In this document: piece after piece, positions 10,512 through 36,128 of the stretch
How the letters are laid out: every line of letters begins with the position of its first letter
Position numbering within the stretch: position 1 is the first letter of the stretch
DNA from: Puniceicoccaceae bacterium
Lineage (GTDB): Bacteria; Verrucomicrobiota; Verrucomicrobiia; Opitutales; Coraliomargaritaceae
DNA length: 36,153 nt
Direction of reading: 5' to 3'
NCBI GenBank assembly: GCA_017854655.1
Contig: JAFMHF010000015.1
Location: 1 to 36,153 of the forward strand
The notes under the pieces: model-generated
Told to the model about the DNA's origin: nothing
The model's input: the letters and a program-made list of their open reading frames with translations, nothing else
Database searches by the model: none
Made by a program: the position numbers and the translations under genes

Positions 10512-10536
10512 TAAAAATGGGGTGGCTAACGGGATT
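10512..10536. repeat. Inner copy of tRNA-His 3'-end direct repeat (att-like)
   Basis: Perfect 25-base match to 10381-10405, offset by 131 bases. This copy is part of the intact tRNA-His gene: 10521-10536 are tRNA, 10518-10520 the encoded CCA and 10512-10517 the downstream flank. The sequence between the copies is only 106 bases and carries no integrase or other gene. Confidence 0.85.
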
Positions 10537-10595
10537 CGAACCCGCGACCCCCGGCACCACAAGCCGGTGCTCTAACCAACTGAGCTATAGCCACC
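10518..10595 (-). tRNA. tRNA-His (anticodon GTG)
   Basis: The minus strand folds into a complete cloverleaf: acceptor GTGGCTA with TAGCCAC, a D-arm beginning GCTCAGTTGG, anticodon stem CCGGC/GCCGG with loop TTGTGGT (anticodon GTG at 10558-10560), and a T-arm with TTCGAAT. The extra G at position -1 that defines histidine tRNAs is encoded at 10595, the discriminator is C, and the CCA tail is encoded at 10518-10520. The 3' end is duplicated 131 bases away. Confidence 0.97.
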
Positions 10596-25181: not shown

Positions 25182-26075
25182 TCATTCGCCATCACTAAGG
25201 TCGACAAGTACAGCCAGCAAGGCCTGCCCCAATGAACGATCCGAGGCAACTAGCACGCCGCGGTGATTCATGAATGTAGAATCTGCTCGATTTAAATCCA
25301 AGCGCTGTCCGGCAACATCACTGCACCACGCGCCCAACTCTGCGTAGATGCACGCCGTCGCAGCATAATCCCACAGACTGCCGCCGCCGGCTTGCGGCTT
25401 CGGGAATTTGAAATAGCACGCAGGCGCTTGCTCCAATACCCACAACGCATTCATCACCGCACCGCCCGTCAAAGTTGTTTGCAGCCCGTCCTGGCCGAGC
25501 TCACTCGCCAATACCTGCAACTGCGCCAGCGCCGCGTCAAACTGCGGGTGACTCACGATGCTACGATCTGAAATAAAGCTCAGAGGCGCAGCCTCTGACG
25601 ATGGTGGCAACGTCCAAGGCTCACCATCACGCAACGCCCCCTGCCCCGCAACTGCCTGATAACTCGTGCCGGTCGAGGGATCATAGACCACCCCAATCAA
25701 CGGCGTACCATCCCGCGCCACCAACGCAATCGAAACCGCATAACCGGGGATTGACTCCGTAAATGGCAAAGTCCCATCGAGCGGATCAATACACCAGAAG
25801 GCATCTTTTTCTAAACGACTGCCATCATCTGGCTGCTCTTCAGTCAACAGTCCGAGATCGTAGGCCGCACAGCTCGGCAGCAAGTGCTTTAGGATAATCG
25901 CCTGGCTCAGCTCATCCACCTCCGTCACGACCTGCGAGGCGAGACTCTCGCCGCCGGCCTTGTGCTGTACCAGAACCTCACGACCATCGTACTGAGCAAT
26001 CAAGACGCCTGCCTCCTTCACTGCCGTCGCCGCGCACCCAACGAGCTGGATCAAATCTTCCGCGCTTAATCGCAT
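25182..26075 (-). CDS. Inositol monophosphatase-family phosphatase (CysQ/HAL2-like)
   Basis: A lithium-sensitive-type metal-dependent phosphatase of 297 residues. The metal-binding motifs are TEEQPD (E79/E80), [14 protein letters not shown] (D97, D100, G101, T102) and, near 230-240, [12 protein letters not shown] with the third aspartate. These place it in the IMPase/FIG superfamily. The wide spacing and the DGTLPF wording suggest the 3'(2'),5'-bisphosphate nucleotidase branch, but an inositol or sugar phosphate substrate is equally possible. Its start overlaps the end of the upstream kinase gene by ten bases, so the two are co-transcribed. A kinase and a phosphatase in one unit hints at opposing or sequential action on related small molecules. 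Confidence 0.83.
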
Positions 26076-27064
26076 CGTGCAGCATCCTGTAAACTGGCAA
26101 GCACTTCACGAGCCAAGCGCTCACTGTAGCCATTGATCTTCCAATGCCCCGGGCTCCAGCCTTTTAGAAAGCGATGAAAGTCCGTCCATGCCACTGGATA
26201 AAGCGACCGCCAATCACGCTCCAAGGCATCCAGATCGAGGTTAGTTCCTTGGGCCGTTAATGCACCACGCAAGACACCGAAATACAGATCCAACAGCGCA
26301 GACTCCTCCCGCTCGCACGCCAGTTCGTCGAGACAACTGCCGACAAGGTAGGCGACGTCCTTGATCCCACACCCTGCTCCTACATACTGAAAATCCACCG
26401 CCGCCACCGACGCGCCATCTTCTGAAAAACAAAAGTTCGCCAGCTTGGCATCACCATGCACCAGCGTCTGATATGGACTAGCCCTGAGCTTTTGATCGAT
26501 CGCAACTGCCGCGTTTTTCAATGCCGGATCTTCCTTCGCTAAGATCGCCAGCTCATCCGGCCGTGTATCCAAATGCCAATACGTGCCCTGCTCCCACAAG
26601 CCCCTCGGCTCGGCCCCCATAAAAGTCGCGTGGAAATGCGCCAACCACGACAAGCAGGCGTGCAACTCAGTCTCACCCACGGTCGTGCGACGCAGCGCAA
26701 ACCCCGACGCATCCAGATCCTCTAATACCATGATCGACTCGTGCCGCACCGACTCCAGCGCCAAGCACTTCGGCACCCGGCAACCCGGCCCACAACGCGC
26801 ACTCCAGTCACGATACCAGGCCGCCTCCACTTCGTAGGACTTGAGCTTACGTTGATGCGACAGATCCGTATTCCACCCCCTTGGGTGTGTCACTGCCGCC
26901 GGCAGCGACACGTGTTTGACGACCACACTTTCCACAGACCCGCCCTTCAACCCATAACGCACAATCGAACCATAGCCGCTCCAAAGACTCTGGATCACGC
27001 CCAGCTCAATCAGCTCAGTGGCTCCGGTGGAGCTCAGAATCATCGATTTTAAATGCGTATTCAT
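26066..27064 (-). CDS. Aminoglycoside phosphotransferase/CHK-like small-molecule kinase
   Basis: A protein-kinase-like-fold phosphotransferase of 332 residues from the ATG at 27064; an alternative start at 27097 would add 11. Visible elements are SVVVKHV with the presumed ATP-binding lysine (K50 in this numbering), [11 protein letters not shown] as the hinge, [13 protein letters not shown] with the catalytic H-G-D-x4-N (203-210) and [10 protein letters not shown] with the metal-binding D224. This layout is found in aminoglycoside, choline and ecdysteroid-type (DUF1679/CHK) kinases. The target is probably a small metabolite; nothing indicates antibiotic resistance. The stop codon overlaps the phosphatase start by ten bases. 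The upstream minus-strand open frame ends in a TAATG junction with this start. Confidence 0.8.
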
Positions 27065-27246
27065 TAGGAGATAGAACATGAACAGCTCATGCCACAATCC
27101 AAGAGCGAACTAGCCGAGGCAGTATTCCACAGCGCATGAGTCAGGCCGAGGTACTCATCGACCTGCATCCAATTCAATGGTACCTTGCGATGGCGCAAAC
27201 TCCAGTGATGCGCGAAGCCATACGTACCGGTCGGCATCCCATCCAT
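27064..27246 (-). CDS. Possible small protein, 60 residues, unrecognised
   Basis: A short frame beginning [20 protein letters not shown] whose TAA stop shares its last base with the ATG of the kinase gene (TAATG), a typical coupling junction. It fills the otherwise empty 190 bases between the kinase and msrB. There is no Shine-Dalgarno sequence, no known motif and an unusual run of H, W and C residues. It may be a real leader protein or chance. Comparison with related genomes at this position would settle it. Confidence 0.25.
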
Positions 27247-29602: not shown

Positions 29603-29706
29603 AAAAGTGGCCAGGCACCCTACGGCACATGAGGATTAGGTGTTCGCTGCTTCCTTCCGGATCTGACGAGGTCAACCTGTCCAACATTGCATAGGACCCG
29701 GCCACC
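29603..29706 (-). ncRNA. ffs: Signal recognition particle RNA (4.5S-type)
   Basis: On the minus strand the conserved domain IV hairpin is explicit: GTCAGATCCGGAAGGAAGCAGC, the Ffh-binding loop of every bacterial SRP RNA, is present with flanking pairing strands. The 5' GGTGGCCGGG pairs with the 3' end (CCTGGCCAC), and a T-run (TTTT at about 29603-29606) ends the RNA. The length is about 100 nucleotides, the short form without an Alu domain. It targets membrane and secreted proteins with Ffh. It lies immediately upstream of dnaX, as the equivalent gene does in Bacillus. Confidence 0.95.
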
Positions 29707-32303: not shown

Positions 32304-32879
32304 CTACTCGATATTTGGCAAGTTCGGATCTTTCTCGATACGTTCTGGGAATTGTTGAATCGACCGACTTAACGATTGCACCACACGCGCCTCCGAATGC
32401 TGAATCGCATCAAAAATATTGGGTAGCTCTGCACGCCAGAAAATTTCGTTGGTGGTCGAATCATAGATCTCCACAGTGAGCGAGACACGAACCGCAGTTG
32501 ACGCACTGCCATAGTTACGCCGATGCATCGTCGAAGTGGCACCATCGACAGAGTCAAACAGGCCAGCATAAGTACTGATCTGCTTATGCCACTTCGCGAC
32601 GACATAAAAATCGCCATTCGATTCAGTCGCCTCAAAACCACGCGCACTCAGCTCTTTTGTTAATACCTGTTCCGACAATGCATTAAGCTCTGCCTCCTCA
32701 ACATCTCTATAGGTCATGCCCGACACGACAGTCCGACCGTAACTAAACGAGTCGAGTTTTGAAAAATAAATCGAGCGCACAAAGTCCCCTGAAGTGCGCG
32801 TCGGCTTCAACGTAGCGCACCCAGTCAAGAATACGGCAGATAGTAGCACGATATTAAGCAGTGGATAAAAAGATTTCAT
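32304..32879 (-). CDS. DUF4136-like lipoprotein, downstream copy
   Basis: A lipoprotein of 191 residues starting at the ATG at 32879. Its signal peptide MKSFYPLLNIVLLSAVFLTG ends in a lipobox LTGC with C21. The body resembles the DUF4136 family: SKLDSFSYGR, LSEQVLTKELSARGFEATES, DFYVVAKWHKQIS and EIYDSTTNEIFWRAELP, followed by a region of small repeats. The function of the family is unknown; an outer-membrane location is likely. The start overlaps the end of a second, similar gene by 26 bases. A long frame up to 33050 exists but lacks a signal peptide at its own start, so 32879 is preferred. Confidence 0.8.
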   Translation of the reverse strand: MKSFYPLLNIVLLSAVFLTGCATLKPTRTSGDFVRSIYFSKLDSFSYGRTVVSGMTYRDVEEAELNALSEQVLTKELSARGFEATESNGDFYVVAKWHKQISTYAGLFDSVDGATSTMHRRNYGSASTAVRVSLTVEIYDSTTNEIFWRAELPNIFDAIQHSEARVVQSLSRSIQQFPERIEKDPNLPNIE

Positions 32880-33405
32880 AAGGACAATGTAAGTCGGGAA
32901 TTGGTAACTCGGAGACCTTTGGTGTGTGATCAGGGAAATTCTGAATTGCCAGTCGCAATGTCTGCGAAACGCGTGCATCAGACCACTGTAAGGCATTAAA
33001 AATGTAAGGCAATTCAGCGCGCCAGAACAAGGATTTATTGGCCGCATCATAAAGCTCCACGATTAGAGAAAAACGCACCGCTTCGGCTGCACTCAGGTTA
33101 ATTTCCTTACGCCACTTCGATACAATATAAAAATCGGCCTCCTGCCCTGCCGAAGCATAGCCACGCTGACTAAGTTCCTCGGTTAGCACATTCTCCGACA
33201 ATTTCTTCATGACCATTGCTTGGGTGCTTCTTAGACCAAGCATACCCGCAACCATCGTATGCTCATACCTAAAACTATCTAATGAAGACATGTCAGTTGG
33301 TTTAACAAAACCACCAATAAGAGTGGTCGATTCAAAAGATGCGCAGCCTGACAGCAAAGCGACAAAGAAGAATGTAACCACACAGGGTCTAAAATAAAAT
33401 CTCAC
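32854..33405 (-). CDS. DUF4136-like lipoprotein, upstream copy
   Basis: A paralogue of the next gene, 183 residues, with start at GTG 33405. The leader MRFYFRPCVVTFFFVALLSG puts the lipobox LSGC with C21 at the same position as in the partner, which supports this start over the TTG at 33432. Shared segments are SLDSFRYEHTMVAGM, LSENVLTEELSQRGYASAG, DFYIVSKWRKEI and ELYDAANKSLFWRAELPYIF. The pair looks like a tandem duplication with 26 bases of overlap and is probably co-transcribed. A stop codon lies just upstream of the TTG, so no longer start is possible. Function unknown. Confidence 0.77.
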   Translation of the reverse strand: MRFYFRPCVVTFFFVALLSGCASFESTTLIGGFVKPTDMSSLDSFRYEHTMVAGMLGLRSTQAMVMKKLSENVLTEELSQRGYASAGQEADFYIVSKWRKEINLSAAEAVRFSLIVELYDAANKSLFWRAELPYIFNALQWSDARVSQTLRLAIQNFPDHTPKVSELPIPDLHCPYEIFLSTA

Positions 33406-33477
33406 AGGCGTATTAAACCTGATTCGCTGCAAAATTCAAACCTTGTCCTACATTCAGCAATATAATCATATGCTTAC

Positions 33478-33564
33478 ATGCGTTTGACCCAACAAGAACG
33501 ATATAGCTTATCGGTGGTATCACTAATTCTAGTGCTAGCCTTGATCGGCTACATCATCTTTTAA
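33478..33564 (+). CDS. Possible 28-residue single-span membrane peptide
   Basis: An ATG frame encodes 28 residues: a short basic/polar N-terminus (MRLTQQERYS) and one hydrophobic helix (SVVSLILVLALIGYIIF) to the stop. No family is recognised and no ribosome-binding site is clear. It stands alone between the lipoprotein pair and the TPP riboswitch. Confidence 0.35.
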   Translation: MRLTQQERYSLSVVSLILVLALIGYIIF

Positions 33565-33751
33565 CTTAGCAGCGTGTCCGTAAGCTTTTATTTGAGCGGA
33601 GACAGCGCAGTACGGTATGCTCGCGGGCGCTGTTCAGGCTGACAGGCGGCGCGAGACCTGCCAGGCTAGCGCCGAAATGAATTCACCCCGCAGCCGTACT
33701 CGGTTCTAATTCTAGGTTGACAAGGTAGCAGCCCTCCTTCTTTTCTGACGA
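33565..33751. other. GC-rich structured stretch before the riboswitch
   Basis: No gene is seen. Arms AGTACGG (33609-33615) and CCGTACT (33694-33700) form an imperfect long-range pair around a GC-rich interior with nested short inverted repeats (ACAGCGC/GCGCTGT at 33602-33632, GGCGC/GCGCC). This could be a leader RNA structure or decay product. A function cannot be assigned. Confidence 0.3.
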
Positions 33752-33858
33752 CCTTCCTTAGGGGTGACCTAGTCTGGGTCTGAGATGTTTCCTTGCAACT
33801 GCACAGAAATGATCCCTTCGAACCTGATCCGGTTGACACCGGCGTAGGAAAAGGAAGG
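33752..33858 (+). promoter_or_regulatory. TPP riboswitch (THI element)
   Basis: The conserved thiamin-pyrophosphate aptamer elements occur in order. A P1 strand CCTTCC (33752-33757) pairs with GGAAGG (33853-33858). GGGGTG (33761-33766), CTGAGA (33780-33785), CCCTTCGAACCTGATC (33814-33829) with the ACCTGATC core, and CCGGCGTAGGAAA then follow. It binds TPP and should repress the downstream TonB-dependent receptor gene, whose ATG is 75 bases on. A terminator hairpin with a T-run is not seen, so translation control is more likely than attenuation. Confidence 0.92.
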
Positions 33859-33902
33859 GAGCGTACTTTATTGCACGATCCCACTTTTCGCCGCCAGAGG
33901 CC

Positions 33903-33930
33903 GGATCTCAAACAACACTGATTGAGATCC
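33903..33930 (+). promoter_or_regulatory. Hairpin at the TonB receptor start codon
   Basis: Perfect 8-base arms (GGATCTCA and TGAGATCC) with a 12-base loop end two bases before the ATG at 33933. There is no T-run. As a stem directly against the start codon, lacking an exposed Shine-Dalgarno sequence, it is a plausible expression platform for the upstream TPP aptamer. This is inference. Confidence 0.55.
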
Positions 33931-33932
33931 AA

Positions 33933-36128
33933 ATGAAATACATACCAACAATACTCGCCATCGCCATCTGCTCGGCTGGCTTACATGCGCAATCCGCCAC
34001 GGAGGCTCCTGTAAACAGCCAGCCAGAAGCCAACCAACTGCCGACCACCATCGTCACTGGTAGCCTGTGGGAATCCGAACTCGAACGCACCACCGCCAGT
34101 GTGACGGTGATCGATCAAGCCCGCCTCGAGACGAATGGCGTGCAGCACTTTGAGGACATCGTCAATGCGATCCCGAATCTCACATGGACCGGCGGCAGCT
34201 CTCGCCCACGCTACATTCAAATCCGTGGTATCGGCGAAAACTCCCAATTCGAAGGCGAAACACCCGACTCTGCCGTGCGCTTCCTGATCGACGACCTCGA
34301 CCTCACGGGTTTGGGCACGGTCGGCAACCTGTTTGACGTGCAACAAGTCGAAGTACTACGCGGCCCACAAGCGGGGGCCTTCGGTGCCAACGCCGCAGGT
34401 GGTGTGATTCGCATCGTCACCAATGAGCCAACACCGTACTGGACTGGCCAAGTCGAAGGCACTGTCGGTGAAGATAGTCTCGTCGCAGGCGGACTCGCCG
34501 TCGGTGGACCCATTATCGAGAGTGATCCCGATAAACTCACCTTCCGACTGGCGCTGCATCAGCTCAACCAAGATGGCTTCCGCGACAACCAGTTCCTCGG
34601 TAAGGACGATACCAATCGGCGCGACGAGCTCACCACCCGACTAAAGCTGCGCTGGTTGGCCAATGACGACTGGCAGTTCGACGGCCAACTTTTCTACGCA
34701 AATGCCGACAACGGTTTTGACGTGTTCTCACTCGCGAATAATCGCACCAAAACTTTCACCGACCAACCCGGACGAGATGAACAAGAGAGCCTAGGCCTCA
34801 GCCTTCGCAGTTCATGGCTCGGGCATGACTTGGTTAAAATAGTCAGCACGACAGCTTTCAACTCAAGTGATTCGCTTTACAGCTTTGACGCAGACTTTGG
34901 TGCAGGCGAATTACAACTAGCGCCGTTCAAGAGTGGTTATACTGAATTCTTAGAAATTAAACGCGATCGTGATGTTTTTTCTCAGGAAATACGCGTCGAT
35001 TCGCTAGAAGATGCACCCGCGATCGGCTTAATTGATCGATGGACCTTGGGCTTGTACTTAGAGTCTTTCGACGAAATTACTCAAACTACAGGCGCATTCC
35101 CAGTGCCTAGCTTCAATACCGATTACGAAAGCGAGACGCTTGGTCTATTTGGCCAAATAACACACGAGGTTACGGAAAAACTACGCCTCACGCTTGGTCT
35201 GCGCGGTGAGTATTATCAACTTGACGGAAAAATTGATAATGAAGGAAACACTATTTTCGATGACGGCTACGGAACAACTTTTCCCATTATCCAACGCCCT
35301 AGTATCGGTTTCAATGACACACTATTCGGAGGAAAAATTACGGCGGAGTATGATTTATCTACCGAGCATCTTTTATTTGCATCATTTGCACGTGGCTACA
35401 AAGCTGGCGGCATCAATCTATCGCCCTCGCTGAATCTTGCCGACTTCGACGATTCCTTTCCCTCTGGAACGCTTCCCGCCGACTATGATACTGAAACACT
35501 TTATAACTATGAAATCGGACTGCGGTCTACTTGGTTTGATAGTGCAGTGAAAACTAAGCTCACCGCCTTTTATTTACAGCGCGACGATGCTCAACTACGA
35601 GGATCAGCTGGCGCACGTAATGCGTTTACTTACTTCACAGTCAACGTAGATGAGGCAGAACACTTTGGACTGGAAGCGGAAATCGACTGGCAAATTAATC
35701 CATACTGGAAAATCAGTTTGAGCGGCGGGCTCCTCGAAACGGATCGAGACCAGTTTTCGGTTCCAGGCGCACCTGGAATCCTTTCAGATCGCAGCGAACT
35801 CTCGAACTCTCCAAATTATACGTACTCAGTTAGGCTCAATTATGACTCGCTCGATCACTTCTTTGCTAATATTGAAATCACAGGGAGTGACGCTTACTTT
35901 GAAGAGAACACAATCGAGGAAAAGCGGAACGCTTACGATGTCGTGAATGCGTCCGTCGGCTACCGCTACGAAAACTGGACGTTCACCATCTGGGGCAAGA
36001 ACCTGTTTGACGAAGGCTACGAAGACCGCGTATTTTTCTTCGACAATTATGATGGCACTGGCAACCGTCGCTTCGAAGCCCCCGCAGCCCCGCGCACCTT
36101 TGGCATCACCGCCAACTACCGCTGGTAA
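33933..36128 (+). CDS. TonB-dependent outer-membrane receptor, TPP-riboswitch controlled
   Basis: An outer-membrane active transporter of 731 residues. A signal peptide (MKYIPTILAIAICSAGLHAQ) is followed by a TonB-box-like LPTTIVTGSL, the plug domain (SVTVIDQARLETNG, YIQIRGIGENSQ, VEVLRGPQAGAFGANAAGGV) and a long beta-barrel ending in the aromatic W of NYRW, as outer-membrane proteins do. The TPP riboswitch upstream suggests uptake of thiamin or a precursor; in Bacteroidetes similar riboswitches are known before TonB-dependent receptors. GC content is markedly lower in the central barrel than at both ends (see findings). The gene is complete. Confidence 0.92.
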   Translation: MKYIPTILAIAICSAGLHAQSATEAPVNSQPEANQLPTTIVTGSLWESELERTTASVTVIDQARLETNGVQHFEDIVNAIPNLTWTGGSSRPRYIQIRGIGENSQFEGETPDSAVRFLIDDLDLTGLGTVGNLFDVQQVEVLRGPQAGAFGANAAGGVIRIVTNEPTPYWTGQVEGTVGEDSLVAGGLAVGGPIIESDPDKLTFRLALHQLNQDGFRDNQFLGKDDTNRRDELTTRLKLRWLANDDWQFDGQLFYANADNGFDVFSLANNRTKTFTDQPGRDEQESLGLSLRSSWLGHDLVKIVSTTAFNSSDSLYSFDADFGAGELQLAPFKSGYTEFLEIKRDRDVFSQEIRVDSLEDAPAIGLIDRWTLGLYLESFDEITQTTGAFPVPSFNTDYESETLGLFGQITHEVTEKLRLTLGLRGEYYQLDGKIDNEGNTIFDDGYGTTFPIIQRPSIGFNDTLFGGKITAEYDLSTEHLLFASFARGYKAGGINLSPSLNLADFDDSFPSGTLPADYDTETLYNYEIGLRSTWFDSAVKTKLTAFYLQRDDAQLRGSAGARNAFTYFTVNVDEAEHFGLEAEIDWQINPYWKISLSGGLLETDRDQFSVPGAPGILSDRSELSNSPNYTYSVRLNYDSLDHFFANIEITGSDAYFEENTIEEKRNAYDVVNASVGYRYENWTFTIWGKNLFDEGYEDRVFFFDNYDGTGNRRFEAPAAPRTFGITANYRW

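Follow-up and report, generated by a model that had tools for sequence, protein, structure and literature searches.

A putative translational OFF riboswitch for TPP ahead of a candidate thiamin-compound receptor gene in marine Opitutales

External vitamin B1 is needed by most marine bacterioplankton, and the receptors that capture it have been assigned mostly on the basis of riboswitches alone. The locus analyzed here, in which a TPP riboswitch precedes a TonB-dependent receptor (TBDR) gene, raises the question of how such a switch acts on its receptor and which compound that receptor imports. The window, that is, the whole stretch of DNA analyzed (36,153 nt), is an entire contig that ends 25 nt past the receptor gene, and it belongs to a 2.3 Mb, 91% complete Opitutales MAG, the close relatives of which are Opitutia MAGs, BACL24 among them. 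Elsewhere in the window, a tRNA (10521-10594, minus strand) and a bacterial small SRP RNA (29606-29703, minus strand) score above their Rfam thresholds. Two adjacent DUF4136-like, lipoprotein-like genes (32307-33050 and 32857-33432, both on the minus strand), the second slightly below the Pfam cut-off, are divergent from the receptor gene and are retained in several relatives. The features of the locus itself are as follows.

33750..33867, plus strand: TPP riboswitch aptamer (THI element, RF00059), matched over its full length by Rfam
33826..33834, plus strand: putative switching strand GATCCGGTT in aptamer P4/P5, able to pair with 33899-33907 (antisequestor), from the pairing analysis of a 27-sequence alignment
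33857..33882, plus strand: variable-sequence hairpin that may link aptamer and platform, proposed from this sequence and its relatives
33899..33907, plus strand: putative antisequestor arm GGCCGGATC, sharing 5 nt with the sequestor, from pairing and alignment
33903..33911, plus strand: 5' arm of the sequestor hairpin, GGATCTCAA, with double changes at 5/9 pairs
33922..33930, plus strand: 3' arm of the sequestor hairpin, TTGAGATCC, covering a weak SD-like GAG and lying 2 nt before the start codon, from pairing and alignment
33933..36128, plus strand: TonB-dependent receptor gene (731 aa) with Plug and barrel domains, candidate thiamin-compound receptor
34080..34406, plus strand: Plug domain, residues 50-158 (PF07715, 7e-16)
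34593..36005, plus strand: beta-barrel domain (TonB_dep_Rec_b-barrel), residues 221-691 (PF00593, 4.4e-36)

The original prediction held that all hallmark elements of a TPP aptamer are present at 33752-33935, and the Rfam search that it proposed confirms this, with a match to RF00059 of 72.6 bits against a gathering threshold of 54.3 (E 1.3e-12) that covers the full model (positions 1-105 of 105) and begins within 2 nt of the predicted 5' end; the predicted 3' end reaches the start codon. The aptamer contains the invariant CUGAGA and GAACCUGAU segments as well as both elements of the conserved core, defined as CUGAGA plus GAACCUGAUC-type segments. The aptamer lies 65 nt from the receptor gene. 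A genome-wide search of the same assembly revealed no second TPP riboswitch, and a sigma-70 promoter scan found nothing.

The region between aptamer and gene can form two alternative helices. The sequestor is a 9-bp hairpin (33903-33911/33922-33930) that adjoins the start codon, and its 5' arm shares GGATC with the antisequestor arm, so that the two helices are mutually exclusive. When TPP is bound, the P4/P5 region of the aptamer would be folded, leaving GGATCTCAA free to pair with TTGAGATCC; the resulting hairpin would close the region immediately before the start codon and switch receptor production off. When TPP is absent, the P4/P5 strand GATCCGGTT would instead pair with GGCCGGATC, breaking the sequestor hairpin and opening the start. 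The SD-like element before the ATG consists only of GAG, which the predicted pairing closes in the aptamer state and leaves partly open when the antisequestor forms. In the sequence studied here, energy models computed without ligand favor the sequestor state by 5.8 kcal/mol. Equilibrium folding alone hence does not explain the ON state, which under these models would need co-transcriptional folding or tertiary effects that lie outside them.

This arrangement is conserved. A search for the platform pattern CCGGATCTCAA-N2-16-TTGAGATCC in 273 genomes of the order identified 24 genomes with one copy each, and the reversed pattern, used as a control on the same 273 genomes, gave no matches. All 24 loci present thi-box segments upstream and, in frame downstream, a homologue of the receptor (some 47-78% identical among relatives with long matches), the reading frame of which begins 0-5 nt from the hairpin; each of the nine loci newly checked against Rfam is a member of RF00059. 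Shared by 24 or more genomes of the order, the succession of aptamer, platform and receptor gene is not due to chance, and the pairing of riboswitch and receptor is retained across several families. The sequestor is paired in 95.5% of the cells of the 27-sequence alignment and shows both-sided changes at five of its nine pairs, a number that none of 500 shuffles equalled. The antisequestor is paired in 97.1% of cells across the same 27 sequences, with a single double change that does not exceed the shuffles; its covariation is slight, and it is in any case largely constrained by the aptamer and the sequestor. Its best support is the CC that lies outside the sequestor and is nearly invariant, together with a G-to-A change in aptamer P5 of one relative (G022) that is matched by a C-to-U change in the platform. 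In a contig labelled as Gammaproteobacteria (L037), the same aptamer and a near-identical platform precede a receptor with 57% identity, and this contig may have been mis-binned from Opitutales or may result from transfer. Receptor frames are fragmented at L054 (G024), L040 (G006) and the Sulfurovum locus L215, which may reflect assembly errors or decay.

A stable hairpin ahead of a start codon might also be read as a terminator, in which case the riboswitch would operate through transcription termination. However, the hairpin is followed by AAATGAAA and not by a U run, nor is a U run found after the hairpin in the relatives, and a terminator scan of 33420-34000 was negative at the platform. 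In G026, moreover, the matching arm (GAGATCC) is located just after the ATG, inside the coding sequence, with the start codon in the loop. This location and the lack of a U run argue for translational control, and we consider termination unlikely. The leaders of the thiC operons in prototrophic relatives (L044, L043, L047 and L065) possess a different platform with T5-T7 runs, unlike the receptor leader of the same genomes; such runs might belong to a terminator, and a terminator scan of the thiC leaders confirmed none and saw the U run alone. We met no earlier description of the receptor platform. Under translational control, thiamin might leave mRNA levels unchanged, and transcript counts of genes of the omr1 type, discussed below, would miss the regulation. 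In RNA-seq data from Bacteroides thetaiotaomicron (PMC5613172), the biosynthetic operon changed and the transport operons linked to riboswitches stayed the same, which would fit this idea.

The gene that follows the riboswitch had been predicted to encode an outer-membrane receptor, in agreement with its Plug and TonB-dependent barrel domains, which both exceed their Pfam cut-offs; a signal peptide (MKYIPTILAIAICSAGLHA-Q) and a TonB-box-like LPTTIVTG were recognized by eye only. The best general matches of the product are siderophore-receptor models, such as TIGR01783, and among solved structures the pesticin receptor (4epa, E 4e-23) is nearest in sequence, as would be expected of a siderophore or heme receptor that stands behind a TPP riboswitch by coincidence. 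Nevertheless, every siderophore-receptor model match falls below its family cut-off (139.8 bits against 223.5 for TIGR01783), coincidence does not sit well with a pairing kept in several of the order's families, and the closest homologue on a plasmid, from Sulfurovum, also adjoins a TPP riboswitch and a PnuC gene. A siderophore or heme receptor is hence very unlikely.

The thiamin genes of the genome point to the substrate. Using queries from G010, tblastn yielded no match for ThiC, ThiE, ThiG or ThiD in this genome, so that no genes for de novo synthesis are detectable. TPK and ThiK are also missing from the genome, no ThiK scored above cut-off in any relative searched, and ThiL is retained. 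Given this combination, the bacterium seems unable to make either half of thiamin and should need thiamin or one of its phosphates. The genome is 91% complete and these absences are accordingly provisional, but relatives that are 97-99% complete (e.g. G014, G016, G022 and G023) show the same pattern. Four relatives that share its genus or family (G005, G010, G013 and G020) harbor the full ThiC/E/G/D set in an operon with its own, second TPP riboswitch, in addition to the riboswitch-receptor pair. An APH/ecdysteroid-kinase-like protein is encoded in the window (26069-27097, minus strand), across most of the genus and in three searched relatives outside it. This gene was rejected as a general ThiK, since outside the genus it occurs only in G020, G023 and G034 and it is missing in most receptor-bearing relatives.

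TPP riboswitches also control transporters of precursors, such as thiV, which adjoins one in Pelagibacterales (PMC10881298), and the receptor might thus take up precursors or breakdown products of thiamin (HMP, HET or AmMP) in place of thiamin or its phosphates. Yet a genome with no match for ThiE or ThiD would be unable to join precursors, and the ThiL that it keeps acts on TMP; we therefore regard uptake of such compounds as very unlikely. Import of a thiamin compound, as originally proposed, remains the best reading, supported by the lack of detected thi genes, by the single TPP riboswitch of the genome and by the retention of the pair in relatives. Taken together, we infer with high confidence a TPP-sensing OFF riboswitch, most likely translational, that acts on a TBDR importing thiamin or its phosphates in a thiamin-auxotrophic marine Opitutales bacterium. 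The locus offers a concrete and conserved switch suited to a reporter test.

The analysis also exposes a gap, namely the conversion of thiamin to TMP in genomes that possess ThiL and no TPK or ThiK, for which a candidate gene can be named. Of the 18 relatives with an alignable receptor, 17 have a PnuC-family gene that scores above the Pfam cut-off, the exception being a 74% complete genome (G002), and few relatives without the receptor have one; in the genome studied here it lies outside the window (G000:C43:3446-3976). In the relatives, the PnuC-family gene is followed by a gene for a NadR-like AAA_28 kinase, and in G034, G083, G221 and G250, which represent three other families, the two genes are oriented divergently from the riboswitch-receptor gene. 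Loci L132, L192, L193, L194 and L218 exemplify the Asp-type PnuC gene (motif described below) and the NadR-like kinase gene that travel with the riboswitch-receptor gene. Persicobacter (Bacteroidota) displays the order PnuC, NadR-like kinase, TPP riboswitch and TBDR; the place of the kinase is occupied by an APH/choline-kinase-family gene in Sulfurovum and in Novosphingobium, at whose locus no TPP riboswitch was detected, and by TPK in Bacteroides. We took Asp in place of the final Asn of the ENWxxWxxxN motif as the mark of a thiamin-type site. This motif ends in Asn in the E. coli and N. mucosa PnuC proteins, which are nicotinamide riboside carriers, and in Asp in the PnuC encoded on C43 and in nearly all of the receptor-linked clade (G191 has N); four plasmid pnuC genes that adjoin TBDRs, three of them with TPP riboswitches, carry D as well. 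Asp at this position may thus mark thiamin specificity.

Genomes with the receptor-linked PnuC-kinase pair present ThiL and lack TPK or ThiK, and the NadR-like kinase may consequently be a thiamin kinase. A complete B1-import route without TPK or ThiK, in which this kinase would supply TMP to ThiL downstream of the riboswitch-controlled receptor and a PnuT-like transporter, seems to us about equally likely to be right or wrong. An informative exception that fits the idea is G026, which has the receptor, a lone PnuC and TPK, and in which the NadR-like kinase was not found. Against it stand the kinase being unseen in the genome studied here, where contig C43 ends inside pnuC, the presence of an Asn-type PnuC together with the receptor in G141 and G233, and the fact that PnuC and a NadR kinase make up the standard nicotinamide riboside pair (PMC7221760). 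Kinase residues that differ between clades failed as substrate discriminators, with H. influenzae NadR sharing some of them with the receptor-linked clade. Among the papers listed by our literature search, none tied NadR-type kinases to thiamin.

The combination of a TPP riboswitch and a TBDR belongs to a class that is already known, from OMthi in Bacteroides and from omr1, including that of Opitutales. Genetic evidence supports OMthi of B. thetaiotaomicron (BT2390), encoded together with PnuT and thiamin pyrophosphokinase, as a thiamin receptor: losing the receptor in addition to biosynthesis raises the thiamin requirement of mutants roughly tenfold above that of the biosynthesis mutant (PMC5613172). 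The locus reported here resembles it in the TPP riboswitch ahead of the receptor gene, but the receptor of the relatives is not trailed by PnuC and TPK, and the candidate kinase is a different one. A comparison with the receptor of a B. finegoldii plasmid (TPP riboswitch, order TBDR-PnuC-TPK), to which our receptor is about 23% identical over 224 aa (E 8e-4), revealed no close homology to the Bacteroides OMthi type. The putative thiamin receptor omr1 has been described close to TDP riboswitches of SAR86 and Flavobacteriales (PMC10881298), and a 2025 metatranscriptome from the Baltic Sea reported omr1 uptake transcripts and an omr1 uptake strategy for Opitutales (PMC12442306). The notion that the substrate is unassigned in this group hence does not wholly stand. 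As with omr1, a candidate receptor gene is here placed under a TPP riboswitch in an Opitutales host, and the available text of both papers calls the specificity unclear and describes no platform or kinase. In the plasmid collection, the closest receptor is encoded on NZ_CP087125 from Sulfurovum mangrovi (E 9e-63; 38% over the N-terminal 300 aa) and likewise has its own TPP riboswitch; there, the TBDR, PnuC and kinase genes are codirectional, a choline/ethanolamine-kinase-family gene replaces the NadR-like kinase, and the receptor reading frame is broken in that record. An earlier survey (PMC2771747) placed predicted thiamin receptors in three distinct clusters of the receptor family, and a receptor that is distant from the B. 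finegoldii type and related to that of Sulfurovum fits this division.
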